From IMG/VR virus record IMGVR_UViG_3300046536_000202, positions 1 through 42,857 of that record: a stretch of 42,857 nucleotides of DNA. The stretch is one strand, 5' to 3'. The notes beneath the pieces are model-generated. The model made no database searches and had not been told where the DNA came from. It saw nothing but the letters and a program-made list of their open reading frames with translations. This DNA comes from a virus. This document shows, piece by piece, positions 26,238-42,857 of the stretch (positions are counted from its first letter, which is position 1; the number at the start of each line of letters is the position of its first letter). The position numbers and the translations under genes were made by a program.

Positions 26238-27317
26238 TCACGAGCATTCGCTGCCGCTTGGCGGCGGGGCGAGGTGTTCGCCACTTTCGCGCCGCTCGAA
26301 TCCGATTCGCTCGCCGATCCGGTCAGCACCGCGCGCGACCGTGCCGAGGTTCTTCTCCAGGTACCCCATCGTCGTCATCGGGTGCTTGTGGCGCATGACT
26401 GCCTGGATGTTCTGGACCGGCACGCCGTCCTCCGACAACAGGGTGGCGAAGGTGCCGCGCAGGCGGTGCGGCGTGATGCCCTTGGTCGCGCACACCGCGT
26501 TGGCGGCGCGCATGGCGCTGCGTGCATACCCGGCCGGCAGCTGCGAGCCGTCGGCGCGTGCGGCGATCAGGCCATGGTCGCGGCGCAGCGGCTGCAGGTA
26601 TTCGACCAGCCAGCGCGGCAGCGGTACCGGCTCGGCCTCGCGCCCTTTGGTGATGCCCGGCGTGTAGGTGGAGCGCTGCCAGTCGATCCATTCCCAGTGC
26701 GCAGTAGCCGACTCGGACTCACGCAGGCCGAGGCCGAACATCAGGCGCACGCCGGTGCCGACGGCCTGGCTGCGTGCTGCCTTGTCGATCGCGGCGAACC
26801 AGGTGCGCGCGACATCGATGGGCAAGATCGCGCGCGGGCGCTTTTGCAGCTTCAGCATCTGCACCTTCCAAGGCAAGGCCGGGATGATCTCGCGCTTGAC
26901 CGCCCACATCGCGATCAGCTTGAGCACGCGCAGCCAGTGGTTCGCGCTGGCTGGCTTGTGCGTCTCCAGGTGCGTGTTGCGCGCCAGCTCGACGTCGGTG
27001 GTGGTGACCTGGTTGATCGGCAGTTCGCCCAGGTCGTACAGGTGCAGCCGCCCGAACGTTTCGACGCTGCGGATGTGTGCACGGCTGCGCACCGGTGGCT
27101 GGTGGATTCGCAGCCATTCGGCGATCAACTCGCGCAGCGTCGGTACCGGCTGGCCGCCGTTGGCCCGCACGACGGCGGCGTCGAATGCCTTCTGCGCGAT
27201 CATCTCGGCGCGGGGCCGTTTCGTTTCACGCGTGCTGCGCTGGATGCGTACACCGGCGACTTGAAAGCGGTAGTGCCAGACCTTACAGGTGCCAACACGG
27301 AACAGGCGGTAGCTCAA
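26238..27317 (-). CDS. Second tyrosine recombinase, within the early operon
   Basis: The 359-residue product has the full catalytic set of the family: GLGLRESESATAHW (Arg I), a Lys-bearing beta-hairpin (GITKGREAEP), ITPHRLRGTFATLL (His-x-x-Arg), VMRHKHPMTTMGYLEKN (His/Lys and the Tyr nucleophile). It starts with TTG, which overlaps the stop of the P-like gene (TTGA). It is far from both att sites and divergent from the main integrase. It could resolve phage dimers, serve another site, or be a relic of an older integration module. Confidence 0.88.
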   Translation of the reverse strand: MSYRLFRVGTCKVWHYRFQVAGVRIQRSTRETKRPRAEMIAQKAFDAAVVRANGGQPVPTLRELIAEWLRIHQPPVRSRAHIRSVETFGRLHLYDLGELPINQVTTTDVELARNTHLETHKPASANHWLRVLKLIAMWAVKREIIPALPWKVQMLKLQKRPRAILPIDVARTWFAAIDKAARSQAVGTGVRLMFGLGLRESESATAHWEWIDWQRSTYTPGITKGREAEPVPLPRWLVEYLQPLRRDHGLIAARADGSQLPAGYARSAMRAANAVCATKGITPHRLRGTFATLLSEDGVPVQNIQAVMRHKHPMTTMGYLEKNLGTVARGADRIGERIGFERRESGEHLAPPPSGSECS

Positions 27318-28111
27318 GGCGTGGCCTCCTGCGGCGCAACCAAGCCGAGCGCATCACGCGCTAGATTTGCCGTCGTGAGCGTGACCGATTTGTCGCCATC
27401 AGCCACGCGCTTGAGGATGCGGCGGGCCCAGCGCTTATGGTCGACGCTGTCGTCCGGCCGCTTGGCCACTGCGCGCACGACGATACCCTGCTCCTCGAGC
27501 TGGCGGATCATCGCCGCCGCAGACTCGCGCGACATCATCGTCTTGCCGGGTGCCGGAAGCTGCTGGCGCGGCTGCGGGATCTCAGCCCAGTTCGGCTGCC
27601 CCAGCTGCGCCTTCAAGATCGCGACCCAGCGGTCCTTCACCGCCGAGTAGGCCTGTCCCATCAGCTCGTTCTGTAGGTAGGTCGCGGCCCAGTAGATCGC
27701 GGGATGCGACCACGTTCCCATTTCTCCCTTGCGCCGGGCCTCAAGGCCTGCGACCGCCTCGTGGTATGCAGCGACGGGGTCGGCGAACGGCTTGCACGCC
27801 TGGATGAATTCAGCGCACGACGGCGGCCATGCGTAGCGGCTGCGGCACGCCTTCAGGCCCGACTTCACATCGTCGGGCGTGATGCCTTCCTCCTCGAACG
27901 CCTCGACCCACGATTCCTGCCAGTTGTCGATCGCCTGCGCGTCCGGGAAGTTGGCGCGCCACTTGTGCGGGTAGGCGCCATCGAGCCGGTTGAACAGGTG
28001 ATCCATCAGCGAAATGCCCAGCCCGGGGTGCGGCTCGAACCACTTCGAGTGCGGCCGGGTGGTGATGGGCGCGGCATGCGCCGCTTGCAGCGAGGTCTGC
28101 GATTGGGTCAT
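27314..28111 (-). CDS. Replication protein P-like helicase loader
   Basis: The 265-residue product resembles the lambda P-type replication proteins of betaproteobacterial phages: LMDHLFNRLDGAYPHKWRANFPDAQAIDNWQESWVEAF and GLKACRSRYAWPPSCAEFIQAC. Such proteins bring the host DnaB helicase to the phage origin. It follows the O-like gene with ATGA overlap. Confidence 0.8.
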   Translation of the reverse strand: MTQSQTSLQAAHAAPITTRPHSKWFEPHPGLGISLMDHLFNRLDGAYPHKWRANFPDAQAIDNWQESWVEAFEEEGITPDDVKSGLKACRSRYAWPPSCAEFIQACKPFADPVAAYHEAVAGLEARRKGEMGTWSHPAIYWAATYLQNELMGQAYSAVKDRWVAILKAQLGQPNWAEIPQPRQQLPAPGKTMMSRESAAAMIRQLEEQGIVVRAVAKRPDDSVDHKRWARRILKRVADGDKSVTLTTANLARDALGLVAPQEATP

Positions 28112-31194: not shown

Positions 31195-31616
31195 TGCGGC
31201 GCTTCCGGAAAGCTCATCCAGTGGGTCACGCTCGTGAACTCGACTGGCATGCCGTCAGCGAAGCGCCAGGTATCGCCGTCCAGGTATCCGGTCCAGACCT
31301 CGCGCTCGGGCGTCGCGATCAGCAGCAAGGTGTCAGCGTCGGGCAGCTTCGTGGAGACCGGAATCCAGGTGACGGCCGGAGAGTTCGGCGGCGCCGCCTC
31401 CCCCTGCAGCCGACTGAGCGCCTGCAGCAAGGCTTTGGCCACGCGGCGCCCGTACGGGCCGAGGCCAAGAAACAACGTCGACGCTTGAGCGAGCTCAACA
31501 TCAGTGCCATTGGCCAGCGCAGAATCAATACTGGGGGAGCGTGCGGGCAGCGAAAATGGCGCGCACGAAGCGCACAAGCAGTCGGGCGCGTGCACATCGT
31601 CGGCAAGGGCGATCAC
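31191..31616 (-). CDS. DUF551 domain protein
   Basis: The last 65 residues carry the DUF551 pattern: WIPVSTKLPDADTLLLIAT, then VWTGYLDGDTWRF and VTHWMSFPEAPQ. The N-terminal half has CLCASC, a possible metal knuckle. The start is GTG 31616, overlapping the preceding stop (GTGA). DUF551 genes are frequent in phage early regions and their role is unknown. Confidence 0.75.
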   Translation of the reverse strand: MIALADDVHAPDCLCASCAPFSLPARSPSIDSALANGTDVELAQASTLFLGLGPYGRRVAKALLQALSRLQGEAAPPNSPAVTWIPVSTKLPDADTLLLIATPEREVWTGYLDGDTWRFADGMPVEFTSVTHWMSFPEAPQ

Positions 31617-31798
31617 GCTGCCTCCAGCTGCTCGACGTTCCCGCTTGCGCGGGAATCCTCTTCGTCCCAGCCGGCCTGCCATTCGGCTACGGCCGCCACC
31701 CACGGGTTCATGCCGTGCTGGTTCCGGCCCTTGCCAGCGATGCGTGCCGTGCGGCCGCGTGCGCGAATCGCCTCGCGCGAGATGATTGGTTCGTCCAT
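31613..31798 (-). CDS. Small Rmf-like protein
   Basis: The 61-residue product has REAIRARGRTARIAGKGRNQHGMNPW and AEWQAGWDEED. This resembles the short ribosome modulation factor-like family common in phages (basic helix, Asn-Pro pair, then W-x-x-GW). It might act on ribosomes, but this is only sequence resemblance. It follows the Cro-like gene in the early operon. Confidence 0.5.
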   Translation of the reverse strand: MDEPIISREAIRARGRTARIAGKGRNQHGMNPWVAAVAEWQAGWDEEDSRASGNVEQLEAA

Positions 31799-31843
31799 CA
31801 GGTTCCCTCGTTGTGGTTGCAGCGCTCTGACGGCGCCTGTTGC

Positions 31844-32065
31844 TTAGGCCGCGGCTGTGTCTTTGCCGCGATACATGGCGTTGCAGTCTTCGCACGAAAC
31901 TTCGTGCTCGGTGACGCGGTCAATCTGCACGGCGGAATCGAGAGTGATGCGGACTTCGCCGCGCTCCCACTGGCTGATCAGGCTCTGCGACGCAGGCGGA
32001 TTCAACAGAGCGCCGAACTCCGCCTGTGTCTGTTTTTTTTTCTTGCGGTACTCGGTAAGGTGCAT
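31844..32065 (-). CDS. Cro-like helix-turn-helix regulator
   Basis: The 73-residue product has an XRE-type HTH: TEYRKKKKQTQAEFGALLNPPASQSLISQWERGEVRITLDSAVQIDRVT. The C-terminal end carries a CEDC pair that may bind metal. It is the first gene of the leftward early operon, opposite to the repressor, with operators and a promoter in between. This is the position of Cro in lambdoid phages. Confidence 0.82.
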   Translation of the reverse strand: MHLTEYRKKKKQTQAEFGALLNPPASQSLISQWERGEVRITLDSAVQIDRVTEHEVSCEDCNAMYRGKDTAAA

Positions 32066-32084
32066 GTGCGCTCCGGAGGGATGA

Positions 32085-32168
32085 TTAGCAATGCTGATAA
32101 ATGCTTATATTCTACATTAACAGCATTGCTAATCAACCCCTCGCGCTAAAAATTAGGATTGCTTATAA
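32085..32168. promoter_or_regulatory. Right operator region with early leftward promoter
   Basis: Operator-like 16-mers: TTAGCAATGCTGATAA at 32085-32100, its inverted form TTAACAGCATTGCTAA at 32117-32132, and a weaker TTAGGATTGCTTATAA at 32153-32168. On the minus strand TTGATT (32136-32131), 16 bp, TAGAAT (32114-32109) forms a promoter for the Cro-like gene. The second operator fills its spacer and the first lies around the start point. Confidence 0.72.
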
Positions 32169-32178
32169 AATTCCGCAG

Positions 32179-32604
32179 ATGAAACGACGCGATTTGACAA
32201 CAGAAGAAAGAGAAGAGACCCGGCGACTCGCCAACGAATGGGAGGTTTTTCGCGCGGAGAACAAGGGCGCGACCCAAACTTGGCTGGGAGCTGAGACCGG
32301 GCTGGGCGGCCAGAGTGCGGTCAGTCAGTATCTGAACGGCGTGATCCCGTTGAACCTGACGGCCTTACTAGCATTTTGTCGAGTGCTTAATCTTGAGCCA
32401 AAGCAGATCAGTCCACGCCTGTCGAGCATGGTCGGCGACGTCGAGCTGATGCAGCTCGCAGGCCAGGGGAACGCTCCAATTAGTCTCACCGCTGCACAAA
32501 CCGCCAGGGAGCAATTGCTGCTGATGGCGTACCGCGTCGGCAGTGACACGGATCGTACTGCCATGGACGTGCTGGCCGAGCAAATCCTCAGGCGCGCTGG
32601 CTAG
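32179..32604 (+). CDS. Short prophage repressor, no peptidase domain
   Basis: The 141-residue product has an XRE-like HTH at about 22-75 (WEVFRAENKGATQTWLGAETGLGGQSAVSQYLNGVIPLNLTALLAFCRVLN). The C-terminal part is short and helical. It lacks the Ser-Lys S24/LexA peptidase domain of the CI type. It is divergent from the Cro-like gene and lies between two operator groups, so it is the best immunity repressor candidate. Without the peptidase, induction would not be by RecA-stimulated self-cleavage. I chose ATG 32179; the open frame extends upstream to 32101 through operator DNA. Confidence 0.78.
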   Translation: MKRRDLTTEEREETRRLANEWEVFRAENKGATQTWLGAETGLGGQSAVSQYLNGVIPLNLTALLAFCRVLNLEPKQISPRLSSMVGDVELMQLAGQGNAPISLTAAQTAREQLLLMAYRVGSDTDRTAMDVLAEQILRRAG

Positions 32605-32764
32605 GCGTCGAACGGGGCGAGGCTGATTTTCGGGATTTCCGGTCTCGCGTTCGAGTGGTTGCCGGCATCCGCTCGCTGAGCCCTTTCGCGAAATCACGGA
32701 GCAACTCCCTAGTGTACGGATCCATTGAAGCGTAGGCCGAAATCAGTTCAGGAAGGTGCTTCAT
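32588..32764 (-). CDS. Small basic protein convergent with the repressor
   Basis: A 58-residue frame begins KHLPELISAYASMDPYTRELLRDFAKGLSERM and ends in a basic Ser/Arg/Thr-rich tail. A GAGG site lies seven bases before the ATG at 32764. Its 3' end overlaps the repressor gene end by 17 bp on the opposite strand. Upstream, 32783-32798 is a weak match to the operator word (11 of 16). Function unknown. Confidence 0.45.
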   Translation of the reverse strand: MKHLPELISAYASMDPYTRELLRDFAKGLSERMPATTRTRDRKSRKSASPRSTPSQRA

Positions 32765-32976
32765 CGGTAACCTCATAACTTAAAAGTATTGCTGATATAG
32801 GGCAACTATATGCGCTCTGGGTTACGGTAGTCCACCTCCTCTACTAAAAATCATCGGGTGAATTGTGACCAGATATTTCCGCGCCAATTTCTGTAACGAT
32901 TCGTCGAAGAGCCTCTCCACAGACGCGATAGATTGTGTGGTGACTCCATGTAACAAAGTAGCAGTGTTGTTTTTTT

Positions 32977-32998
32977 GTGGTGTCATATCTGACACCAC
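32977..32998. promoter_or_regulatory. 22-bp perfect palindrome before Arc-like gene
   Basis: GTGGTGTCA and TGACACCAC, nine bases each, flank TATC. The palindrome lies 38 bp before the Arc-like gene in AT-rich DNA. It is a likely operator for the ribbon-helix-helix product (autoregulation, inferred). Confidence 0.6.
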
Positions 32999-33036
32999 TT
33001 TTGTTCGATGATTTCCTGACGCGCAACAATCGCGCG

Positions 33037-33261
33037 ATGGAAAAACGACACAAGACTGAACGAACTCAGCGAACACTGCGCCTTCCCCCTGATCTGGATG
33101 CGGAGGTCGAGGAGGCGGCCGCGCGGGCCGGTCGCTCCATGAACGATGAGATCGTGTTTCGGCTCCGTGCTTACACCCAGGCGACAACGCTGAGCAAAGT
33201 AGCCCAGCAGAATGCCGAGCTGAAACGGATGGTGCAGCAACTGATCGACAGGTTGTGCTAG
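33037..33261 (+). CDS. Arc-like ribbon-helix-helix regulator
   Basis: The 74-residue product has RTLRLPPDLDAEVEEAAARAGRSMNDEIVFRLRAYTQ, the Arc/MetJ ribbon-helix-helix pattern with a beta strand (TLRLPP) and two helices, and a C-terminal coiled tail (VAQQNAELKRMVQQLIDRL). It binds DNA as a dimer of dimers in known relatives. The 22-bp palindrome just upstream fits as its operator. Confidence 0.82.
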   Translation: MEKRHKTERTQRTLRLPPDLDAEVEEAAARAGRSMNDEIVFRLRAYTQATTLSKVAQQNAELKRMVQQLIDRLC

Positions 33262-33294
33262 GTAGGTTACCCAAGTACTCACACGGAGGAAAAA

Positions 33295-33648
33295 TTGAGA
33301 CTGCTCATACCATTGGCCGTTGCCGTTGCCATTTCTGGATGTGCCGCCGCCCCTGCGGTTCCTACCGCCACACCCGCTGAGCAGCAAAGCGCCATAGTCG
33401 CTTATATGAATTGCTTGGCTCCTTTCGCCAAACGTCTTGACGATGGCCGATCGGATGCCCAAACGATTGCGCTCGCGATGCGCGGCGCCTGCCCAACCGA
33501 ACTGGAGGCGGTTTTCGAAACCATATCTCGTGGCGACAATCCTTACGTTAAGCAGGAGATTCGCGCGCGCGGCCACTCCCTCGAGCAATCGTCAGCGCTG
33601 CAGGTAGTTCTGGACATTCGGAACTTCAAGGCTAACCAGACCAAGTAG
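33295..33648 (+). CDS. Lysogeny-region lipoprotein
   Basis: The 117-residue product begins RLLIPLAVAVAISGCAAAP, a signal peptide with lipobox (ISGC). The mature part is soluble (NCLAPFAKRLDDGRSDAQTIALAMRGACP). The start codon is TTG at 33295, eight bases after GGAGG. It lies next to the repressor, in the same direction, and ends before a terminator, so it may be expressed in the lysogen. Superinfection exclusion or another surface change is possible but not shown. Confidence 0.7.
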   Translation: MRLLIPLAVAVAISGCAAAPAVPTATPAEQQSAIVAYMNCLAPFAKRLDDGRSDAQTIALAMRGACPTELEAVFETISRGDNPYVKQEIRARGHSLEQSSALQVVLDIRNFKANQTK

Positions 33649-33669
33649 TCCGCAAATCCCTCCATCGCA

Positions 33670-33694
33670 AAGCCCGCTACGAGCGGGCTTTTTT
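33670..33694 (+). terminator. Intrinsic terminator after lipoprotein gene
   Basis: AAGCCCGCT and AGCGGGCTT form a 9-bp stem with loop ACG, followed by further T to a run of six. It separates the lysogeny genes from the operator-controlled operon that follows. Confidence 0.9.
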
Positions 33695-33734
33695 GCGTCT
33701 GTACCACTAGCGTAAAAAAAATTCATCAATTTTA

Positions 33735-33784
33735 TTAGCAATGCTGTTGACACGCTTAACAGCATCGCTAATAATTGCTGATAA
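33735..33784 (+). promoter_or_regulatory. Repressor-controlled promoter of the DGR-integrase operon
   Basis: TTGACA (33747-33752), 17 bp, AATAAT (33770-33775). Operator words overlap it: TTAGCAATGCTGTTGA at 33735-33750 over the -35, TTAACAGCATCGCTAA at 33756-33771 in the spacer and -10, and a weaker copy at 33769-33784. The words match those at the repressor-Cro interval. Confidence 0.82.
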
Positions 33785-33814
33785 CCAACCAAGCTCTTCA
33801 ACTTTCCGGAGACC

Positions 33815-34189
33815 ATGATGGACGACATCAAGCCGCAAGCACAGCACACCCAAGGGCCGTGGCAGGTCCGCGACGATCATCCGGCCCGTTCCTGCTTGTC
33901 GATCGAAGGCCCCGACTGCGCTCCCATCGCGACCCTCTACTGGGCGCGCGATGACGGCATGTACGTCGACGCGGACGGGGTTGTGCGCAATGACCTGGTG
34001 CGCCAGGCTAACGCACACCTGCTCGGCGCTGCGGAGGTCCTGCTAAAAGCAGCACAAGCGGCCGAAGCCATCCTCGCCCGCCAGAACTGGCTCGACACCT
34101 CCACCGCCCCCGAAGCGCTCGCGCTGCGCCAGCTGCGCGCCGCCATCGCCCAAGCCACCGGCGCGACCGCCACCAGCTCCCCAGAGTAG
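33815..34189 (+). CDS. First gene of the rightward operon, unknown function
   Basis: The 124-residue product contains THQxxGPWQVRDDHPARSCLSIEGPD-type residues (QHTQGPWQV near 10-18), a start seen in many small phage proteins of unknown role, and an Ala-rich helical end. It is the first gene after the operator-covered promoter. Confidence 0.6.
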   Translation: MMDDIKPQAQHTQGPWQVRDDHPARSCLSIEGPDCAPIATLYWARDDGMYVDADGVVRNDLVRQANAHLLGAAEVLLKAAQAAEAILARQNWLDTSTAPEALALRQLRAAIAQATGATATSSPE

Positions 34190-34193
34190 CGCC

Positions 34194-34787
34194 ATGATCT
34201 TCCCTACCGCCCGCCGCACCTGGAACGGCGTCGACATCGAGGGCCAGCACATCGTCCTGCGCCTGCAACCGTCTGACGATGGGACGATCGGCGTGAGCAT
34301 TGCCGGCCTGCCGGCGCTCACCGGCTTTGACAGCCCGTGCCGCCTCTCCGACGACAACTCCCGGCACTTCCCACCGGCCGGGATCACGGTGCACGACACG
34401 CGCCTCGAGTGCTTCGCCGCCAACCAATTCGCGCCGATGCTGCGCGAAGGGTTCACGCTCGAGCTCGAACCCGGGATGGCGCCGCTGCTGCGCACATGGC
34501 TGGACAAGCTGGCGGCGGTCGCCGCGACAGCAAAGGCGATCGCGGACAAGTTCAGCGCGCAGCTGGCGCCGCCCATCCACCACATGCTCGACGCGATCAC
34601 GTCGGTGGTCGCCCGCATCGTGCTGGACGGGTGGGACGTTGAACACTCGGTCGCCTACGAGCGCGCGCACGGGATCTGTGGCCGGGAACAGGCGTTCATG
34701 GACCAGTTCGACACCGAAGGCGTGCAGCAGCAGCTCGCACAACGATCGGGCGCGTCGCCCACCGGCACCACATCCACTGGAGCATGA
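34194..34787 (+). CDS. Phage protein of unknown function upstream of the DGR
   Basis: The 197-residue product has a beta-rich first half (TWNGVDIEGQHIVLRLQPSDDGTIGVSIAGLP) and a helical second half (LDKLAAVAATAKAIADKFSAQL, then MLDAITSVVARIVLDGWDVEHSVAYERAHG). It starts four bases after the preceding stop and overlaps the next gene by four. No family recognised. Confidence 0.6.
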   Translation: MIFPTARRTWNGVDIEGQHIVLRLQPSDDGTIGVSIAGLPALTGFDSPCRLSDDNSRHFPPAGITVHDTRLECFAANQFAPMLREGFTLELEPGMAPLLRTWLDKLAAVAATAKAIADKFSAQLAPPIHHMLDAITSVVARIVLDGWDVEHSVAYERAHGICGREQAFMDQFDTEGVQQQLAQRSGASPTGTTSTGA

Positions 34788-34996
34788 CCATGGCCGCCAT
34801 CCACGCCCAGCAGCGCTTCATGGTGAGCCCGGACGGCCATCAGGCCGACTGGCTCAACCCGGCCTCGTGCCCCGGCTGGATCGACTGCACCGACATGAGC
34901 CCCGAGAAGCTTCAGCGCTTCATCGCCGAGAAGCAGGGCGTGCGGCCGCACATCGTCGGCGTGGTCGCACCAGGCCAGCCGCGCAGCACCGATTAA
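34784..34996 (+). CDS. Small protein before DGR target 1
   Basis: The 70-residue product (AAIHAQQRFMVSPDGHQADWLNPASCPGWIDCTDMSPEKLQRFIAEKQG) is coupled by ATGA to the gene before it and precedes the first target gene by 35 bp. No family recognised. Confidence 0.6.
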   Translation: MTMAAIHAQQRFMVSPDGHQADWLNPASCPGWIDCTDMSPEKLQRFIAEKQGVRPHIVGVVAPGQPRSTD

Positions 34997-35031
34997 CCGT
35001 AGCACCCACAACCACAACCAGGGAGAACCAG

Positions 35032-35841
35032 ATGTCCACCGAGACCATCAGCGCAGCACCCGAAGCAGCACCCACGAAAGCACCGGCCAAGACGATCCTG
35101 AACCCGACCGCCGCGTGGCCGTTCCCGACCGCACGCGTCGCGCAGCACTTGTTCGTCACCGTCCCCGAGACCACGCTGCCGAACGGCACGGTGGTCCCGG
35201 CCTTCCAGGTCGGCCAGTACCACTGCGCGAAGGGTGAAGACGGCAAGGTCGCGATCAGCGCCACCGCCAAGCCGTGGCTCGAGATCAACTATGCGGACGC
35301 GCGCCAGGCCTGCACCGACGCCGGCTACGCGCTGCTGACCGAGCTGCAGGCGCTGGCGATCGCGTTCAACGTGGCGCAGCAGGACGCCAACTGGAGCGGC
35401 GGCAAGGTCGGCGAAGGCAAGCTGCTGCAGGGCCTGCACCTGGACCCGGACAACGTGGACGAAGCCTATGCCGGCGACTACGTGTCGCCCGATCCGGCCG
35501 AGCGCCGCACCTTCGTGCTGTCGAACGGCCAGACCATCTTCGACGCGGCCGGCAACGTGTACAGCTGGATCTTCGACGACGTCCAGGGCGACGAGAACGG
35601 GCTGGTGGCGCGCGCCTTCGCCGCCGACTCGCCGTCGATCACCACGGCGCCCTACCCTTCCCTCGAGCGCGGCATGGGCTGGTATCCGAAGGCTGGCAGC
35701 GATTGGTCGGGCTATGCGCTCGTCCGCGGCGGCTGCTGGTGCTCGGACGACCGTGCCGGCGTGTTCCTTCTCGACCACGACTGGCCCGTCGACGCCTACG
35801 ACCACGTGGGTTTCCGCTGCACCAAACCCGTGGGTCTCTGA
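35032..35841 (+). CDS. DGR target protein 1 (C-type lectin / FGE-sulfatase fold)
   Basis: The 269-residue product has a Pro/Ala/Thr-rich N-terminus without signal peptide, then an FGE-sulfatase-like domain: FQVGQYHC, ALLTELQALAIAFNVAQQDANW, VGEGKLLQGLH, LSNGQTIFDAAGNVYSWIFDDVQGDENG. It ends in the variable repeat (about residues 225-263: GYALVRGGCWCSDDRAGVF ... HVGFRCTK). The repeat codes for the exposed ligand-binding part in known C-type lectin DGR targets. ATG 35032 is preceded by GGGAGAA. It is paralogous to target 2 from about residue 38 on. What it binds, and whether it is in the virion, is unknown. Confidence 0.9.
   Translation: MSTETISAAPEAAPTKAPAKTILNPTAAWPFPTARVAQHLFVTVPETTLPNGTVVPAFQVGQYHCAKGEDGKVAISATAKPWLEINYADARQACTDAGYALLTELQALAIAFNVAQQDANWSGGKVGEGKLLQGLHLDPDNVDEAYAGDYVSPDPAERRTFVLSNGQTIFDAAGNVYSWIFDDVQGDENGLVARAFAADSPSITTAPYPSLERGMGWYPKAGSDWSGYALVRGGCWCSDDRAGVFLLDHDWPVDAYDHVGFRCTKPVGL
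35703..35819 (+). repeat. DGR variable repeat VR1
   Basis: 117 bp aligned without gaps to the template repeat at 38341-38457. There are 16 mismatches and all are at template adenines (26 in the template). The bordering bases differ at non-adenine positions, which marks the ends. Confidence 0.95.
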
Positions 35842-35852
35842 TCACTGGTCCC

Positions 35853-35875
35853 GGGTCGCCGCGAAGCGGTGGCCC
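35853..35875 (+). other. Hairpin downstream of VR1
   Basis: A 10-bp stem (two wobble pairs) with loop GAA lies 12 nt past the target 1 stop codon. The same element follows VR2 with a base change that keeps pairing. In BPP-1 a comparable hairpin behind VR aids retrohoming. Confidence 0.65.
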
Positions 35876-35893
35876 TTTCACACAGGAGCAACG

Positions 35894-36157
35894 ATGCCAA
35901 CGATCTACCAGGGCAAGCCGCCCGAAAGCCAAACGTGGCTGGAAATCCCAGCCGAGTTCGTTCCCGAATTCAGGAAGCTCGGCCACGAGATCCGCGAGCT
36001 GGTGCTGCGTGAGGATGCAGATCGCAGCAGCCTGGTGTCGTTCAACCTCGGCGTCGAGAAGGCCGCTGCGCTGGCCGAGTCGCACAACGCGGCCACCGAG
36101 GCGATCGCGAAGCTGATCCGCGCGTTGAAAAAGAACCAGCCAATGGTGTCGGCATGA
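35894..36157 (+). CDS. Small helical protein between the DGR targets
   Basis: The 87-residue product (PTIYQGKPPESQTWLEIPAEFVPEFRKLGHEIRELVLREDADRSSLVSFNLGVEKAAALAESHNAATEAIAKLIRALK) looks mostly helical. A CAGGAG site precedes the ATG. It could be a chaperone or partner of the target proteins by position, but I recognise no family. Confidence 0.6.
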   Translation: MPTIYQGKPPESQTWLEIPAEFVPEFRKLGHEIRELVLREDADRSSLVSFNLGVEKAAALAESHNAATEAIAKLIRALKKNQPMVSA

Positions 36158-36363
36158 TTCGCGCCTACCGCCGCCTGCGCGAGCGCGTGCGGCGCGCGGT
36201 CAAGCCGTACGTGCTGCTGATGAATGCATGGCGCTTCAAGCTCAGCGAAGATCACCTGGCGTATCTGAATGCCCAGCGCGAGGGTGCGAACGATGCACTC
36301 AAGCGTGAGCATTTGCGTCAGGTGCGGCTGCGCATCAAGCGTGACCAGATTGCGAAGTGGTGA
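36154..36363 (+). CDS. Small basic helical protein
   Basis: The 69-residue product is Arg-rich (IRAYRRLRERVRRAVKPYVLLMNAWRFKLSEDHLAYLNAQREGANDALKREHLRQVRLRIKRDQ). It overlaps the preceding gene by ATGA. Function unknown. Confidence 0.58.
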   Translation: MIRAYRRLRERVRRAVKPYVLLMNAWRFKLSEDHLAYLNAQREGANDALKREHLRQVRLRIKRDQIAKW

Positions 36364-36382
36364 ACTCAAACGAGGGGAAAAA

Positions 36383-36493
36383 ATGAAAACCATCCGCTTC
36401 ATCATGAGCCAGTACCGCCTGTCGTGCCGGGCCGGGTTCGGCCGGCGCAAGTCGCTCCGTCGCGCTGTCAACATCTACGTCAGCGGCTTTTAA
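36383..36493 (+). CDS. 36-residue basic peptide gene
   Basis: A short frame (KTIRFIMSQYRLSCRAGFGRRKSLRRAVNIYVSGF) follows a GAGGGG site and ends 15 bp before target 2. Support is the ribosome-binding site and position; no family recognised. Confidence 0.4.
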   Translation: MKTIRFIMSQYRLSCRAGFGRRKSLRRAVNIYVSGF

Positions 36494-36508
36494 TCAGAAA
36501 GAACAAAA

Positions 36509-37402
36509 ATGAAAATCGAACTCACCCAAGAGGATACCTTTACCGCCCGCGCCGGCGCCCACGCCATTCACGGCCTGCGCCGCACCGCACAGTGGGAGGG
36601 CCTGAGCAAGCTGGTCGACCAGTCCGAGCGCTACCTGATCGTCTCCGACGATGACGGCGCCGTGGTGAAAGGCACGCCCGCGCTGCTCAACGTGCTGCAC
36701 CTGACCACCCGCACCGACCTGTTCGTCACGGTGCCCGAAACGACCCTGCCGAATGGCCAAGTCGTGCCGTCGTTCCAGGTCGGCCAGTACCACTGCTGCG
36801 CCAAGGACGACGGGATCGCCATCGACCCGGCGCTGGCGCCGCTGGTGAACGTCAACTACCGCACCGCAAAGGCGCGCTGCGAAGCGGCCGGCTACAAGCT
36901 GATCACCGAACTGCAATGCCTGGCGATCGCCACCAACATCGCGCAGCAGGACATCAACTGGACGAGCGGCGCGGTCGGCGAAGGCAGTCTCTACCAGGGC
37001 ATCCACAAAGAAAATGTCCGCCGCGCGCAACCGGGCAGCTACGAGCCCGAGGATCCGCTCGAGCGCCGCTGGCACCAGCTGTCGAATGGCGAGCGCATCT
37101 ACGACTTCGCCGGCAACGTTTTCACCTGGGTGCACGACGACGTGCAAGGCGATGCCGACGGCCTGGTCAGCGGCACGATCGCGAAGGACTCCCCATCGCT
37201 GACGTGCGCGCCTTTCCCGAGCAGGGAGAAAGGCGTTGGGTATATCCCGGGCGGCCCGCTGCAATGGTCGGGCTATGCGCTCCTCCGCGGCGGCTGCTGG
37301 TGCTCGGACGACCGTGCCGGCGTGTTCCATCTCGGCCACGGCTGGCCCGACGGCGCCGGCGGCAACGTGGGTTTCCGCTGCACCAAACCCGTGGGTCTCT
37401 GA
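36509..37402 (+). CDS. DGR target protein 2 (C-type lectin / FGE-sulfatase fold)
   Basis: The 297-residue product has a distinct N-terminal domain of about 68 residues (KIELTQEDTFTARAGAHAIHGLRR ... LIVSDDDGAVVKGTP) and then the same FGE-like body as target 1: FVTVPETTLPNG, FQVGQYHCC, LITELQCLAIATNIAQQDINW, LSNGERIYDFAGNVFTWVHDDVQGDADG. VR2 covers about residues 253-291. The different N-terminus suggests that the two targets attach the same variable head to different partners. No signal peptide or membrane segment. Confidence 0.9.
   Translation: MKIELTQEDTFTARAGAHAIHGLRRTAQWEGLSKLVDQSERYLIVSDDDGAVVKGTPALLNVLHLTTRTDLFVTVPETTLPNGQVVPSFQVGQYHCCAKDDGIAIDPALAPLVNVNYRTAKARCEAAGYKLITELQCLAIATNIAQQDINWTSGAVGEGSLYQGIHKENVRRAQPGSYEPEDPLERRWHQLSNGERIYDFAGNVFTWVHDDVQGDADGLVSGTIAKDSPSLTCAPFPSREKGVGYIPGGPLQWSGYALLRGGCWCSDDRAGVFHLGHGWPDGAGGNVGFRCTKPVGL
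37264..37380 (+). repeat. DGR variable repeat VR2
   Basis: 117 bp aligned without gaps to the template repeat. There are 17 mismatches, all at template adenines. In the 12 positions changed in both VRs, 10 carry the same new base as VR1. Confidence 0.95.
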
Positions 37403-37414
37403 TCCCTGGTCTCG

Positions 37415-37436
37415 GGTCGCCGCGTAAGCGGTGACC
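37415..37436 (+). other. Hairpin downstream of VR2
   Basis: A 9-bp stem (GGTCGCCGC with GCGGTGACC, one wobble) with loop GTAA lies 12 nt past the target 2 stop codon. The surrounding 55 or so non-coding bases are nearly the same as those after VR1. Confidence 0.65.
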
Positions 37437-37464
37437 TTCCACAACAATAAACAGAACGAGAATC

Positions 37465-38319
37465 ATGCAACAGGCAGCAACACAGCATCCCACCGATGAC
37501 GAGCTGAACAAGTTCGCCATCAGCAAGTTCAAGGGCATCGACGTCGGGCTGGGCCAAGCCGACCCGATGACGGGCATCGCCAAGAAGCTCGAGCAGCAGT
37601 ATCCGAACCACCTGATCCTGATCCAGGCCGGCAAGTTCCTGCACGGCTTCGACCGCACCGCGCACGCGCTCGGCACCCTGAAGGGCTACCAGCTCAAGCT
37701 GATCGGCACCACCGACGAGCCACACCTGCGTGTCGGCTTCCCGGCCGGTAACTTCAAGAGCCGCTTGTGGTCGATGGTCGAGGAGTTCGGCATCCCCTAC
37801 GTGGTGGCGCTGGGCACGCTCGCGCAGGGCCATACCGTCTACGTGTCGGACCAGTCCAGCCAGCAGTCGCCCGTGCTCGCGGCCGTAACGCCGGAGATCG
37901 TCGCCCAGGTGATCGAGGATCTGCGCCAGCGTGGCAACCTCAACAAAGCAGCGGCCAAGCAGGTGCTGGCCAACCCGGACAGCTCGGGCTTCAAGCTGAA
38001 ACAGCAGGCCCAGGCGCTCGACACGCAGCTGCTGCAGGACATCATCAGGATGCCGCGCGACGTGCGCGTAACCTACGGCGAGAACCTGCGTGCATGCATG
38101 GCACGGCTGATGCGCGCCGTGTTCGCCTTCGGCCTGGATGTGAACCGGACCGCCACCCTGCACGCGATCTCCGCCGACGTCGACCTCCTCAAGCACTACC
38201 TGGCACAGGCCCAACGGCTAAGCATGATCAAGTTCGCATTCGAGCACCGAGTGGGCTTAGCCGTTGAGCTTGGGCGGCTGGTCGGCGGGCTGATCCGTTC
38301 CGAAAAGGCCGCATCATGA
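37465..38319 (+). CDS. avd: DGR accessory protein: MutS domain I-like plus Avd-like fusion
   Basis: The 284-residue product has two parts. Residues 35-118 (IAKKLEQQYPNHLILIQAGKF, then GYQLKLIGTTDEPHLRVGFP and FGIPYVVALG) resemble MutS domain I, the mismatch-sensing domain. Where MutS has the F-x-E motif, this protein has F58-L-H60. Residues 183-280 (QLLQDIIRMPRDVRVTYGENL, then KHYLAQAQRLSMIKFAFEH and ELGRLVGGLIRSE) match the four-helix-bundle Avd family, which binds the RT and the template RNA in known DGRs. The gene lies between target 2 and the template repeat, the usual avd place, and its stop overlaps the ATG of the RT frame (ATGA). MutS-like DGR accessory proteins have been reported, as I recall. 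A fusion with Avd I do not recall. Confidence 0.82.
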   Translation: MQQAATQHPTDDELNKFAISKFKGIDVGLGQADPMTGIAKKLEQQYPNHLILIQAGKFLHGFDRTAHALGTLKGYQLKLIGTTDEPHLRVGFPAGNFKSRLWSMVEEFGIPYVVALGTLAQGHTVYVSDQSSQQSPVLAAVTPEIVAQVIEDLRQRGNLNKAAAKQVLANPDSSGFKLKQQAQALDTQLLQDIIRMPRDVRVTYGENLRACMARLMRAVFAFGLDVNRTATLHAISADVDLLKHYLAQAQRLSMIKFAFEHRVGLAVELGRLVGGLIRSEKAAS

Positions 38320-39647
38320 TCAACGAAGGGGGATTTCTGGAAGGTCGAGCAATGCGCTCATCCGCGGCGGCTACTGGTACTCGGACGACAATGCCGGCGT
38401 GTTCAATCTCGACAACGACTGGCCCGACAACGCCAACGACAACGTGGGTTTCCGCTGACCCAAAAATTACATGCCTGGACGCTCAGCCCTGCGCTGGCGG
38501 GAGGTCAATTCTTGGTCGAAATCCTCCTGGGGCATCCCCAAAAGCAGGGCGTCAAGCCACACCGAGAACCGCGCCGGGGCCTACGGGCGCCGGCGCGGGA
38601 CGTGGCAGCGACAGCGCTTTCACTACCCTGACGGGCCTGCCCAACCTGTACGCCTGCTGGCTGAAGGCTAAGCGCAGCAAGTCGCACTGCCCGCGCGTGC
38701 AGCGCTTCGACGCGGACCCGCTGCACTACCTGCTGACGATCCAGCAGCGCCTGCGCGCGCGCCAGTTCACCTTCGGCCCGTACAAGGCGTTCACCGTGCG
38801 CGAGAAGAAGTTCCGCCAGGTGATCGACGCCCCGATGAAGGACCGCGTGGTGCACTGGATGCTGTACCAGTACCTGCTGCCGATCTGGCAGCCCCGCTTT
38901 ATCCACGATACCTACGGCAACCTGCCGGGGCGCGGCACGCACGCGGCCGTCGATCGCCTGGCCGGGTTCTGCCGCGGCGCCAGCGCTCGATGGGCGCTGC
39001 AGCTAGACATCTCGAAGTACTTCTATTCGGTCAGCCATGAACTGCTGAAGGCGCGCGCGCTGCGCTACGTGGGCGACCACGCCCTGCGCCAGCTGATCGT
39101 CGCACTGATCGATTCGTTCCGCACCGATGGCAGCTACGACCACCTGTTCGACGACGAGACACCCTACCGGCGCACCGCGGCCAAGGGCATGCCGATCGGG
39201 AACCTGAGCAGCCAGCTGTTCGCGAACATCTTCCTGGCCGACTTCGATCACTGGGTGAAGGGCGGCCTGCGCGTGCGCCGCTACATCCGCTACGTCGATG
39301 ACCTGGTGGTGATCGGCGAGACGTGCGCCGAGCTGGTGGCGGTGAAAGACGCGATCGTGGCGAAGCTGGCCGCCGACGGCCTGGTGGTCCACCCTCGCAA
39401 GATGCGCATCGCCCCGGTGTCGGCCGGCGTGCCATTCCTCGGGTACGTCGTCTGGTCGAACCACGTATCGGCCGGAGCTTACGTGCGCGGCCGGTACATC
39501 CGGCGCCTGCGCGAGCACGAGGCGGGCGGCTATGACCGCAGCGAGACCTTGCAAGCCTACCGGGCAATCCTTTCGCACACCGGGCCCACCAACACGCGCA
39601 GGGGCGCCGCGCGCAGCCAAACTCGACACACGGAGACCATGCTATGA
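38316..39647 (+). CDS. DGR reverse transcriptase
   Basis: The conserved part (about residues 104-430 of this frame) has the DGR RT pattern: LTGLPNLYACWLKAKRSK at its start, FIHDTYGNLPGRGTHAAV, motif A LQLDISKYFYS with Asp231, IGNLSSQ at 294-300 (the DGR-type variant of the RT motif 4), and YVDD at 326-329. It copies the template RNA into adenine-mutated cDNA. The only ATGs in this frame are at 38316, overlapping the avd stop, and 38352, both before or in the template repeat. Either RT is translated through TR, which stays open in this frame, or a non-ATG start nearer 38620 is used. The first 100 residues look non-conserved. Confidence 0.93.
   Translation: MINEGGFLEGRAMRSSAAATGTRTTMPACSISTTTGPTTPTTTWVSADPKITCLDAQPCAGGRSILGRNPPGASPKAGRQATPRTAPGPTGAGAGRGSDSAFTTLTGLPNLYACWLKAKRSKSHCPRVQRFDADPLHYLLTIQQRLRARQFTFGPYKAFTVREKKFRQVIDAPMKDRVVHWMLYQYLLPIWQPRFIHDTYGNLPGRGTHAAVDRLAGFCRGASARWALQLDISKYFYSVSHELLKARALRYVGDHALRQLIVALIDSFRTDGSYDHLFDDETPYRRTAAKGMPIGNLSSQLFANIFLADFDHWVKGGLRVRRYIRYVDDLVVIGETCAELVAVKDAIVAKLAADGLVVHPRKMRIAPVSAGVPFLGYVVWSNHVSAGAYVRGRYIRRLREHEAGGYDRSETLQAYRAILSHTGPTNTRRGAARSQTRHTETML
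38341..38457 (+). repeat. DGR template repeat (TR)
   Basis: 117 bp with 26 adenines, many in AAC/AAT codons of the VR reading frame (N at each diversified site). In that frame it ends with a TGA stop just past the repeat, and where the VRs have Cys. Mismatches to both VRs occur only at its adenines. It lies between the avd-like gene and the conserved RT region. The 160 bp or so that follow, before the conserved RT part, may be the structured RNA spacer. Confidence 0.96.
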
Positions 39648-39796
39648 ACTTCTGGACGATTTGCCTGATCTTCTGCCGTATGTGGACCACGGCACCGACA
39701 TGCAGCGGCAGCTGCAACCAGGGCCGCCAGCCGTGCGACTGTAGGAACACTGCAAGCCCGTGCACATCTGGACGGACGGGAGAAACGGAACAATGA
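39644..39796 (+). CDS. 50-residue Cys-rich peptide coupled to RT
   Basis: A short frame has ATGA overlaps at both ends: its ATG with the RT stop and its stop with the next ATG. It encodes a peptide with seven Cys (for example FWTICLIFC, APTCSGSC, PCDC). Double coupling is the main support. No family recognised. It might bind metal or be a coupling leader. Confidence 0.5.
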   Translation: MNFWTICLIFCRMWTTAPTCSGSCNQGRQPCDCRNTASPCTSGRTGETEQ

Positions 39797-40023
39797 TTTA
39801 CCTTTCCGCCCAAGAACTCGCGGACTTGATCGGGTGTGCCCCGAACAGCTTCGCGTGTATGCGCCGCTACCTCACACGCAACAACTGGCCGTTCGCGCCG
39901 ACCCTGCGTGGCTTCCCTCACGTCAGTCGAGCATATTATGATGCCAGGATGAGCGGCGCGACCAGCGCACCCGCGCAGACGCAGCCCGAAGAAGAACCCG
40001 ATTTCAGCATGTTCCAGAAATGA
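39793..40023 (+). CDS. DUF4224-type protein next to integrase
   Basis: The 76-residue product begins IYLSAQELADLIGCAPNSFACMRRYLTRNNWPFAPTLRGFPHVSRAYYDA. This resembles DUF4224, a small domain encoded just before many phage integrases, possibly an excision or integration cofactor. It overlaps the integrase gene (ATGA). Confidence 0.72.
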   Translation: MIYLSAQELADLIGCAPNSFACMRRYLTRNNWPFAPTLRGFPHVSRAYYDARMSGATSAPAQTQPEEEPDFSMFQK

Positions 40024-41120
40024 GCGGACGACGTAAAGCCCCAGACGGCATGCCGTTTCGCCTCTATGAGCGCATCGGCAAATTCAAGGTCAGCTATACC
40101 TACAAGCTGCCGGACGGGACGTGCGCATTCTGGCTGTCGGCGCCGGCCAGCGACAAGGAAGGGGTGGCCCAGATCAAGGCCGAGGCCATCCAGCGCGCCA
40201 ACGAACTGAACGGCGTGGTGCCGGAGGCGAGCGGGGAAACCGAAGAACTGTTCCGTGAATACTTCGCCTGGCAGCGCCGCCTGCCCAGGGAGAGCGAGGA
40301 ACGGAAAGCCGACAACACGCTCAAGGAAAACGAACGCGAGCAGAAGCCGCTCCTGCGCAGCTTCGGCAAGGTCAAGCCGGAGAAGATCAAGCCCGTGCAC
40401 ATCTACCGCTACCTGGACGGGCGCGCGGCCGAAGGCGCGCCGGCCAAGGCGAACAAGGAGGTGGCGCTGCTATCAGCGGTATTCGAATTCGGGCGCCGGC
40501 GCGGCAGGATCGAGACGAATCCCTGCCGCGGCATCAAGTACAACAAGACCAGGCCGAAGACCAGTTATGTGGACGCCGCAGCGCGCGGCCTGGTAATGCG
40601 CGTGGCGCGCGAGCGCGGCGGGATGTACCTGGTGGTGGCGCTCTGCCTGCGCGTGGCGTACCTGACTGTCAGCCGCCCGGACGAGACGCGTTCGATGATG
40701 CGGCAGGCGGTCGAGTCAGATGGCGTGCGGGTCCCGGTGGGCAAGCGCAAGAAGGGCCAAGCGCAGAAGTACAAGCTAATCGAGTGGTCGCCGGACCTGC
40801 GCGCCGCGATCGACGAGGCGCTGTCGCTGCAGCGCACCGCGAGCATGTGCGTGTTCGGCAATAGCGACGGCCAGCCGTACACCATCAGCGGATTCAATAC
40901 CACCCTGCGCCGGCTGATGGCGCACTGCGAGAAGAAGGCAGCAGAGGAAGGCATCGCGTTCACCAGGTTCACGCTGGCCGACATGCGCCCGGCGGCGGTG
41001 ACCGACCGGGTGGACGACGGCGACGAGCACATCACCAATGCCACTGGCCACAACAGCGAGCGCATGGTCAAGCAGGTCTATGACCGCCGCAAGGTCAAGA
41101 AGGCGCGCGCTACGGAATAG
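40020..41120 (+). CDS. int: Phage integrase (tyrosine recombinase)
   Basis: The 366-residue product has an N-terminal arm-binding-like part, a core-binding helical domain (about 95-165) and a catalytic domain with CLRVAYLTVSRPDETRSM (Arg I), VGKRKKGQAQKYKL (Lys), FTLADMRPAAVTD (Arg II; the usual His or Lys before the Asp is Ala), ATGHNSERMVKQVYDRR (His and Tyr). It lies 1.6 kb from attR and is the last gene of the DGR operon. It is the likely enzyme for tRNA-His integration. Confidence 0.92.
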   Translation: MSGRRKAPDGMPFRLYERIGKFKVSYTYKLPDGTCAFWLSAPASDKEGVAQIKAEAIQRANELNGVVPEASGETEELFREYFAWQRRLPRESEERKADNTLKENEREQKPLLRSFGKVKPEKIKPVHIYRYLDGRAAEGAPAKANKEVALLSAVFEFGRRRGRIETNPCRGIKYNKTRPKTSYVDAAARGLVMRVARERGGMYLVVALCLRVAYLTVSRPDETRSMMRQAVESDGVRVPVGKRKKGQAQKYKLIEWSPDLRAAIDEALSLQRTASMCVFGNSDGQPYTISGFNTTLRRLMAHCEKKAAEEGIAFTRFTLADMRPAAVTDRVDDGDEHITNATGHNSERMVKQVYDRRKVKKARATE

Positions 41121-41232
41121 GCGCTCGAGCTAGCGCCTCCGCTTGACCTGATGCTGGGCTCCCCTTGAGCGGCACCAAGTTGCCGTAAACACAATTCAGC
41201 CATGATGAAGCCTCACCAACTACGGAGGCAAC

Positions 41233-41724
41233 ATGGCAATCGACGCATACCTGCAGCTAGGAGAGATCAAGGGGGAGTCGGCGGACAGTGCGCACCAGGG
41301 CTGGATCGAGTGCGAGTCGGTCAACTGGTCGATACGGCAGCCGAAGAGCGCGACCTCATCGACGGCGGGCGGCCACACGGCCGAGCGCGCCGAACTCTCG
41401 GACGTCACCTTCCACAAGATCTGCGACCTGGCATCGCCGCTCCTGGCGCAGCACTGCGCGATGGGCAAGACAATCCCGAAGGCGAAGTTTGAGTTCTACC
41501 GCGCCGACGGCAACGGTACCCGCGTCAAATATTACGAGGTTGAGCTCGAGAACGTCATGATCGGCCACGTGGCGCAAGGCGTCGCGGCTGGCGGTATGAA
41601 TGACAGCATCGGCTTGAAGTTCTCGAAAGTGAAGTGGCGGTACACCCAGCAGAAGATCGCAGGCGGCGCCGGCGGCAACACCGCGGGCGGGTGGGACTTG
41701 TCGACCAATCGGGTAGCGGCATGA
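41233..41724 (+). CDS. hcp: Hcp1-family type VI secretion tube protein
   Basis: The 163-residue product matches Hcp from end to end: AIDAYLQLGEIKGESADSAHQGWIE, SATSSTAGGHTAERAELSDVTFHKICDLASPLL, VKYYEVELENVMIG and the C-terminal KVKWRYTQQKIAGGAGGN, then GGWDLSTNR. Hcp hexamers form the inner tube of the type VI secretion system and carry small effectors. There are no other type VI structural genes here. The start follows GGAGG. It is coupled to the next gene by ATGA. The 110 bp upstream hold no clear promoter. Confidence 0.93.
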   Translation: MAIDAYLQLGEIKGESADSAHQGWIECESVNWSIRQPKSATSSTAGGHTAERAELSDVTFHKICDLASPLLAQHCAMGKTIPKAKFEFYRADGNGTRVKYYEVELENVMIGHVAQGVAAGGMNDSIGLKFSKVKWRYTQQKIAGGAGGNTAGGWDLSTNRVAA

Positions 41725-42110
41725 GGCGCGCGCTGCTTGTGGCCGCGCTGGCGCTGGCGCTAACGGCGCAGGCTCAGGATGATGAGCACCGCGAACTGCC
41801 ACCGATCCCCACGGTTGCACCGTATCTGACCGGCGCGGAGCTGGTGCGCAAGCTGGCGAGCCCGCAAGAGGCGCATGACGCCGAGCTGTATATCAAGGGC
41901 GCGCACGACGCCACCGAGCGCAAGCTGTGGTGCCTGCGCGACCGCAGCTGGAAGGCACCGCCCAAGATGCGCTCGCCCGATCTACAGGCGTTCGCGCTCA
42001 ACGGGCTGCGCGCCTTGCCGCCCGCCCAACTGAAGCGCAATGCGGCGGATCTGCTGCTGGAATTATGGCAGGACAAATGGCCATGCCCGCCCGATGGGTG
42101 CTGCCCGTGA
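41721..42110 (+). CDS. Rap1a/Tai-type immunity protein
   Basis: The 129-residue product has a signal peptide (RRALLVAALALALTAQAQ). The mature part has YLTGAELVRKL, AELYIKGAHDATERKLWCL, ALNGLRALPPAQLKRNAADLLLELWQDKWPC, the layout of the periplasmic Rap1a/Tai immunity family with its paired Cys. It would protect the cell from the amidase encoded next. Overlaps on both sides (ATGA with hcp, GTGA with the effector) support a single module. Confidence 0.75.
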   Translation: MRRALLVAALALALTAQAQDDEHRELPPIPTVAPYLTGAELVRKLASPQEAHDAELYIKGAHDATERKLWCLRDRSWKAPPKMRSPDLQAFALNGLRALPPAQLKRNAADLLLELWQDKWPCPPDGCCP

Positions 42111-42577
42111 GTGCGCCGCTGTTTACCCTCCTGAAAGTCCATCACATGGGCGCACGCTTTACCGCGCCGCAGGTGCTGGACGCCATCGGTCACCCCGAAC
42201 TGGCGCTCGATCCGGCCTGGGGCAATACCTGCGCAATCCGGATGAGCGTGGCCCTGGTCTGGGCCGGGGTCAAGATCCGCACAGGCCCGGCCCGGCTGCG
42301 CCTCAATGCCGGGCCGCTCAAGGGCGAGCAGATCGAGCCGAGCCAGAAAGTGCTGTCCGAGTTCCTGGCGCATGAAATCGGCAAGCCAGAACGGTACCGG
42401 AGTGGACCGGATGCAAACAACGCGGTTGCCTGGCGCCACGGCATCGTGTCGTTCTTCAGCCTGCACGGCTCCAGTCAGGGCCATATTGACCTGGTATCGG
42501 TTCAGGACTGGCCGCAGCATTGCAGCCTGTCGTGCTACTGGGATTGCCGGGAGGTATGGTTTTGGCCGCTGCACTAG
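42107..42577 (+). CDS. Tae4-like type VI amidase effector
   Basis: The 156-residue product has NTCAIRMSVALVWAGV with the likely catalytic Cys42 and GIVSFFSLHGSSQGHIDLV with the likely catalytic His126, plus a C-terminal Cys group (QHCSLSCYWDC). This is the Tae4 layout of papain-like amidases that cut peptidoglycan stem peptides. I prefer the GTG at 42107, overlapping the immunity stop as GTGA, because it gives the normal family start. ATGs at 42065-42083 in the same frame are alternatives. No signal peptide, as expected for an Hcp-delivered effector. Confidence 0.8.
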   Translation: MSAPLFTLLKVHHMGARFTAPQVLDAIGHPELALDPAWGNTCAIRMSVALVWAGVKIRTGPARLRLNAGPLKGEQIEPSQKVLSEFLAHEIGKPERYRSGPDANNAVAWRHGIVSFFSLHGSSQGHIDLVSVQDWPQHCSLSCYWDCREVWFWPLH

Positions 42578-42583
42578 CCCCGA

Positions 42584-42663
42584 TTTTTTCGGAAGATGCA
42601 AAAAACTGCCGAGAGCTCCATAGGGAGAATTGTATCCTTGCGGAAATCTCATCTTCTGAAAAT
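42584..42663 (+). other. attR-side arm region
   Basis: TTTTTTCGGAAGATG at 42584-42598 repeats the word near attL. A related inverted copy, CATCTTCTGAAAA, lies at 42650-42662. The AT-rich 134 bp between the effector gene and attR (42578-42711) hold no gene. Confidence 0.45.
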
Positions 42664-42711
42664 TCATGCGATAATCGTGTTAAATCAAAGGCTTACGCCG
42701 TTTTGAGAGGC

Positions 42712-42765
42712 GGATTGTGATTCCTGTTGTCGTGGGTTCGAGTCCCATCAGCCACCCCAAGAATT
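42712..42765 (+). repeat. attR core: 54-bp direct repeat
   Basis: Identical to 1008-1061. It is the displaced 3' part of the host tRNA-His gene and marks the right prophage end. Confidence 0.95.
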
Positions 42766-42770
42766 CCGAA

Positions 42771-42797
42771 GGCCGCAAGTTCGCTTGCGGCCTTTTT
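42771..42797 (+). terminator. Original host terminator of tRNA-His
   Basis: GGCCGCAAG and CTTGCGGCC form a perfect 9-bp stem with loop TTCG, followed by TTTTTGTTTTT. It lies six bases past attR and must have ended the tRNA transcript before integration. Confidence 0.88.
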
Positions 42798-42857
42798 GTT
42801 TTTCCGCGCAACGGATTCCTGCGGGCTTGCTTGAGATCAGCCCGTACGGTAGCGAGA

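Follow-up and report, generated by a model that had tools for sequence, protein, structure and literature searches.

In the viral DNA analysed here (the window, 42,857 bases), one family of operator-like sites covers two promoters: that of the Cro-side lytic arm and that of an operon carrying a DGR together with excisionase and integrase genes. We consider it likely, with good confidence, that the two clusters correspond to OR and OL of a lambda-type immunity region, in which DGR, xis and int would form the PL operon, off in the lysogen and expressed early upon infection or derepression. The sites, the promoter, the terminator, the gene order, the adenine-specific differences between template repeat (TR) and VRs and the covariation between lineages are read from the sequence. 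The wiring is of the classical immunity type; what is unusual is the DGR as its cargo.

At up to three mismatches, the 16-mer TTAGCAATGCTGATAA occurs five times in the window: 32085(+), 32117(-), 32153(+), 33735(+) and 33756(-). Shuffled windows hold 0.06 such sites on average, and 0 of 100 shuffles reaches five. All five fall in two clusters, one in the repressor/Cro gap and one at the DGR promoter, which bears out the claim of an earlier note that the same operators serve the Cro-side promoter and the DGR-integrase promoter. The sixth site named in that note, TAATAATTGCTGATAA at 33769, holds up despite four mismatches to TTAGCAATGCTGATAA: it is the sixth-best match (25.0 bits; next best 19.7 bits) of a six-site matrix, a score that is circular because the matrix was built from all six sites, 33769 among them. 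With this one added, there are six 16-bp operator-like sites, three at 32085-32168 and three at 33735-33784, and many of them can be read off the sequence as imperfect dyads of the form TTA-N-CA-N4-TG-N-TAA. The second cluster lies past the repressor gene, is inverted, and sits over a promoter pointing away from the switch. The sites are as follows:

32085 to 32100, plus strand: operator TTAGCAATGCTGATAA, from the motif scan
32117 to 32132, minus strand: operator TTAGCAATGCTGTTAA, from the motif scan
32153 to 32168, plus strand: operator TTAGGATTGCTTATAA, from the motif scan, directly 5' of the repressor gene
33735 to 33750, plus strand: OL-like operator overlapping the -35, from the motif scan
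33756 to 33771, minus strand: OL-like operator in the spacer and over the -10, from the motif scan
33769 to 33784, plus strand: OL-like operator TAATAATTGCTGATAA over the -10, four mismatches to the 16-mer, from the matrix

The leftward ORF 32588-32776 has a weak seventh operator-like site (32780-32795, minus strand, 19.7 bits) just 5' of it, with a score that 0 of 60 simulated windows reaches. The 16-mer with two ambiguous bases was also scanned in viral contigs, where at least 120 stretches had one match each among the matches listed. These were set aside as evidence, because a single match to 14 fixed bases is expected by chance in so large a collection.

The promoter under the second cluster, proposed in the earlier note as TTGACA-17-AATAAT, proves to be the best promoter match in 31500-42857. 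Genes on the cro side lie on the minus strand; repressor, DGR, xis and int lie on the plus strand. The signals are:

33747 to 33775, plus strand: PL-like promoter of DGR, xis and int, TTGACA-17-AATAAT, 11/12 match
32109 to 32136, minus strand: leftward PR-like promoter, TTGATT-16-TAGAAT, covered by operators
33669 to 33691, plus strand: intrinsic terminator, hairpin AAAGCCCGCTACGAGCGGGCTTT with a T-rich tract after it, separating the repressor side from the DGR promoter

The switch genes and the lytic arm comprise:

31844 to 32065, minus strand: Cro-like protein at the head of the leftward lytic arm (Pfam HTH_3 3.8e-6)
32179 to 32604, plus strand: probable CI-type repressor of 141 aa with XRE HTH (PHROG transcriptional regulators 3.2e-5)
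27314 to 28111, minus strand: lambda P-like replication protein of the leftward arm (Pfam Phage_lambda_P 5.3e-13), showing the polarity of the lytic arm
21378 to 23033, minus strand: head-tail connector, a lytic gene running in the opposite direction to the DGR operon

The repressor matches Pfam HTH_3 at E 0.011, under Pfam's cutoff, and the Pfam search found no S24 domain in it, returning a weak HTH match only. S24, a self-cleavage domain, is common, though not universal, in repressors of lambda-type phages, and 9 of the 19 repressors scanned from related lineages have it. Since the window repressor is without S24, SOS-type induction is not to be assumed, and its inducing signal may be a different one. 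A second tyrosine-recombinase gene (26238-27317, minus strand; Phage_integrase 6.6e-17), separate from the integrase at 40020, adjoins the lambda P-like gene in the leftward arm.

Along the plus strand 3' of 33747, the order is a trio of small genes, the first variable protein, another two small genes, the second variable protein, the protein with the Avd domain, the TR, the RT, and the excisionase and integrase in which the window's left operon terminates:

33815 to 34189, 34194 to 34787 and 34784 to 34996, plus strand: three small genes at the operon head, the first being PHROG 1273 (unknown function)
35032 to 35841, plus strand: variable protein 1, FGE-sulfatase fold (Pfam 2.7e-7), VR at 35705-35819
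36509 to 37402, plus strand: variable protein 2, FGE-sulfatase fold (Pfam 3.8e-6), VR at 37266-37380
37465 to 38319, plus strand: Avd domain with an extra N-terminal region (bAvd 9.3e-7, under Pfam's cutoff; PHROG Avd 7.5e-9)
38343 to 38457, plus strand: template repeat with 24 adenines
38316 to 39647, plus strand: ORF with DGR reverse transcriptase (PHROG RT 1.9e-94; RT match over residues 109-428)
39760 to 40023, plus strand: excisionase-like protein (PHROG excisionase 3.6e-12)
40020 to 41120, plus strand: tyrosine integrase (PHROG integrase 1.2e-29)

The second small gene (34194-34787) had no match in protein-family searches. The FGE-sulfatase fold, found in both variable proteins, is a C-type-lectin-like one. 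The bAvd match recurs in 18 of 18 relatives of the 37465-38319 protein; compared with solved structures, the Avd family gave no match. The TR overlaps the 5' part of the RT ORF, whose start is provisional, and tblastn matches of the RT include annotated DGR phages. All differences between the TR and the VRs (14/14 for VR1, 16/16 for VR2) fall at TR adenines, and since the VRs differ from it at adenines alone, the DGR looks active over evolutionary time.

From this arrangement we infer binding, repression, timing and a mutagenesis that follows transcription. The XRE repressor, and probably also the Cro-like protein, would bind both clusters. Because the sites at 33735-33784 overlie -35, spacer and -10, bound repressor should block the DGR promoter and with it expression of the DGR, the variable proteins, xis and int; the terminator at 33669-33691 would exclude repressor-operon transcripts from the DGR operon. 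In a stable lysogen the operon would be silent; during infection, before repressor builds up, or upon derepression, it would come on early, and Cro or new repressor would perhaps close it again. Since Cro probably binds the same sites as the repressor, expression may be early and transient rather than continuing all through lytic growth. The earlier note had the DGR and integrase silent in the lysogen and opened at induction or infection, which site placement and lambda precedent favour, with the timing as the conditional part; its tie between diversification and the lytic or establishment phase is narrowed here to an early, maybe transient, phase, with SOS induction not assumed.

The second cluster also occurs where there is no DGR. 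A search with the window repressor returned four loci (L005-L008). In the DGR-free L005, the repressor is 59% identical over residues 1-88, the switch is alike, and the second cluster lies over TTGATT-17-AATAAT, followed by RecT (1.1e-31) and YqaJ exonuclease (3.8e-15). L007 has a second operator cluster and no DGR, as judged by eye; L008 gave no interpretable switch, and L006 is truncated. In lambda, recombination genes occupy the left operon. Because the DGR-free L005 and L007 carry the second cluster, it would be a general OL, and the DGR would be cargo at the place where lambda has recombination genes. This bears on the idea that the repressor activates transcription from the DGR promoter, so that the DGR would be a lysogeny gene, which we regard as very unlikely: the RecT and YqaJ genes under the like promoter of L005 are lytic and would make little sense as lysogenic genes, and operators on the -10 and in the spacer are at positions where bound protein normally blocks polymerase, even though the DGR lies on the repressor's strand, a frequent home of lysogenic genes, and one of the three sites could be activating.

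Across related DGR phages and prophages, whose repressors differ, it is well supported that operator sequence varies between lineages and that the copies in the switch and in the DGR promoter change together. A search with the Avd protein gave 20 viral loci, and one with an Avd alignment gave 52 viral loci, those 20 included, and 13 genome loci, mostly from Betaproteobacteria, for a total of 65 loci plus the window. Cultured bacteria that carry relatives include Duganella sp. BJB476, Thauera butanivorans, Aromatoleum toluclasticum and Methylotenera oryzisoli. L130, L148, L136, L154, L182, L193, L171 and L191 were dropped as apparent copies, judged by matching coordinates and scores without alignment, and L144 as likely the same phage as L156. 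The test set consists of 30 lineages with a repressor switch; six switches were found in additional upstream DNA, and 27 of 66 loci lay outside the covariation test, being not testable or having no switch found. For each lineage, the best sigma70-like promoter between the switch and the first detected variable gene was taken, and its best ungapped match to each switch was scored.

In the 30 lineages, own switch-promoter pairs average 17.8 and other pairs 7.5, and own pairs sum to 534, with 345.5 as the highest sum among 100,000 permutations. In 23 of 30 lineages the own promoter comes out first, and in four (L129, L133, L164 and L165) second or third. These second and third ranks arise because like operators occur elsewhere (L129 resembles L177; L133, L166; L164, both L133 and L166; L165, L156): in all four, equal-or-higher scoring promoters come solely from lineages with a similar operator. 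Because the automatic promoter pick passed over the operators of L149, exact 15-mers located at its third-ranked promoter, this lineage comes seventh. L178 ranks first but is borderline, scoring 9.5 against a mismatched-pair 95th percentile of 10.0, and the own promoters of L155 and L157 rank last. The Avd of L129 is 90% identical to that of the window, yet its operator is different, of the AATATTAGTC-N-GACTGATT type; it is present in the repressor gap as well as at the DGR promoter, arranged as in the window.

In 9 of the 30 lineages, the switch was located or shifted by means of the repeat itself. In the 21 lineages with the switch placed from the HTH gene alone, own pairs sum to 345.5, the highest of 100,000 permutations being 249, and 17 of the 21 lie above the 95th percentile of mismatched pairs. 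Among the nine repeat-placed lineages, a plus-strand gene by the switch has a Pfam HTH or S24 match (E <0.1) in eight, some of these matches being under Pfam's cutoff; L138 is without any match. These results make it extremely unlikely that operator likeness reflects shared ancestry or AT-richness without regulatory meaning. Against a genome GC content of 65%, both regions are AT-rich, and L155 shows a mismatch, but the combination of difference between lineages and match within each phage exceeds all 100,000 permutations in both the 30- and the 21-lineage sets, and a control switch read backwards, its composition unchanged, scores 5.5-11.0.

In the positive loci of a first repeat test, the top switch match was inverted and adjoined the DGR operon, as OL stands to OR. 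L141, L152, L153, L164, L167, L176 and L178, negative in that test, were later found to have operators; they had appeared negative because of a misplaced HTH-gene start or short operators. In L155 and L157 the later analysis, too, was negative. The DGR promoter of L155 has a pair of ACAACTTA-GGTTGT dyads at 2525-2563 without counterpart in the adjoining XRE gap: a possible natural immunity mismatch, or this 13-kb MAG contig could be a recombinant. In L157, no operator-bearing DGR promoter was found.

In 20 of 30 lineages, the 300 bp just 5' of the DGR promoter contain a hairpin with T residues after it; of the remaining 300-bp windows from switch to promoter, 3 of 270 do. This enrichment favours a DGR promoter shielded from transcription of the repressor operon. 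On the plus strand, no terminator-like site was found from the promoter to the RT (Avd in L185) in any of the 30 lineages, the window included. Plus-strand ORF coverage over this interval is high in all lineages and was not counted as evidence, being uninformative in GC-rich DNA. Within the downstream DNA covered, a relative of the window integrase follows in 6 of 30 lineages, the window counted. Dyad centres cluster near the -10 in many promoters, by a noisy detector that serves as illustration only. Taken with covariation and the OL/PL-like layout, the insulating terminator strongly supports common control of both promoters, a reading of the earlier note that is very probably right.

OL-OR looping is well known in lambda, and the second cluster might chiefly be bound by Cro or act as a looping partner that stabilizes the switch, with weaker promoters feeding the DGR in lysogens, which would then also diversify. 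We think this unlikely: the sites overlap the -35 and -10 instead of lying beside the promoter, a terminator stands upstream of it, and in most lineages no promoter from the switch to the first variable gene scores higher than the operator-bearing one. The sites by themselves are silent on which protein dominates, and excerpts of the hankyphage study report DGR activity in uninduced lysogen cultures, which also released virions spontaneously (PMC12135933).

With the lambda immunity region, the window shares divergent repressor and Cro genes separated by several like operators, an inverted second operator set beyond the repressor at the promoter of an operon ending in xis/int, and a replication gene (lambda P-like) in the cro arm. 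It differs in that its left operon has a DGR and two variable proteins, not recombination genes (compare L005), and in that its repressor is without S24; the likeness appears to be one of layout, and the window repressor is not claimed as a lambda CI homologue. Bordetella phage BPP-1 (mtd-avd-TR-brt), Faecalibacterium phage Lagaffe and Aeromonas phage phiARM81mr have an RT, an Avd, a TR and adenine-specific changes in the VR in common with the window. In these three phages the DGR is found amid tail or structural genes, whereas the window DGR belongs to the early left operon and its targets lie outside the tail genes.

None of the isolate phages encodes a relative of the window Avd protein at E 1e-5, and none matches the window region by DNA. 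Pseudomonas phage Cruim01 (PP179333; L207) is an isolate, predicted to be temperate according to excerpts of its report (PMC11256456). It has a left operon that carries RT, RT-15 RNA and a pair of variable-protein-like genes and finishes with an integrase; this operon stands 3' of a terminator and of TTGACT-17-TAAATT flanked by TTTAG-N4-CT(T/A)AA dyads. Similar half-sites lie near its C2 repressor gene, a match made by eye that the automatic scan missed; its RT is only about 31% identical to that of the window. In the DGR isolate LPPA56, no second operator cluster was seen.

As far as titles and abstract openings in the open-licence literature go, no description of OL-type operators controlling a DGR promoter was found, and on that partial view the nearest published case is the hankyphage repressor study (PMC12135933). 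Its excerpts state that silencing the CI-like repressor RepC-HP raised most phage transcripts and DGR activity (PMC12135933). Hankyphage shares a CI-like repressor with the window but is a Mu-like transposable phage with a tail-fibre target, and the excerpts mention no operator at its DGR promoter (PMC12135933). Control of DGR activity in nature is described as open in the Discussion of one paper (PMC12875486); metagenomes have been read by Roux et al. as evidence of widespread, seemingly constant DGR activity (PMC8144416), which, like the hankyphage activity without induction, speaks against an operon silent in the lysogen, and BPP-1 homing assays, by an excerpt, used lytic infection or mitomycin induction (PMC3240598).

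Tentatively, and at less than even confidence, we propose that in a broad group of temperate phages the DGR and its non-tail targets are early PL genes, hypermutation being confined to infection or derepression and the targets acting early inside the cell. If so, the diversified proteins could counter host defences or competing phages, and not serve as receptor-binding tail parts; receptor switching is unlikely for the window targets because they sit in the early operon, a position that separates the window group from tail-fibre DGRs. The control element itself can be named at base level and is conserved across many phages as a wiring rule, not as a sequence, with the direct prediction that lysogens keep the DGR off and that infection or derepression turns it on.

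Two further features of the DGR proteins were observed. The approximately 170 residues ahead of the Avd domain (37465-38319) have a weak likeness to MutS domain I, with a MutS_I match in 13 of 18 Avd-protein relatives (best E 3.7e-4); since mismatch repair might act on mutagenic cDNA, the possibility that this region is a decoy is worth testing. Of the 11 positions at which VR1 and VR2 each depart from the TR, 9 have the identical base in the two VRs, which suggests recent duplication or VR-to-VR conversion, not independent mutagenesis.
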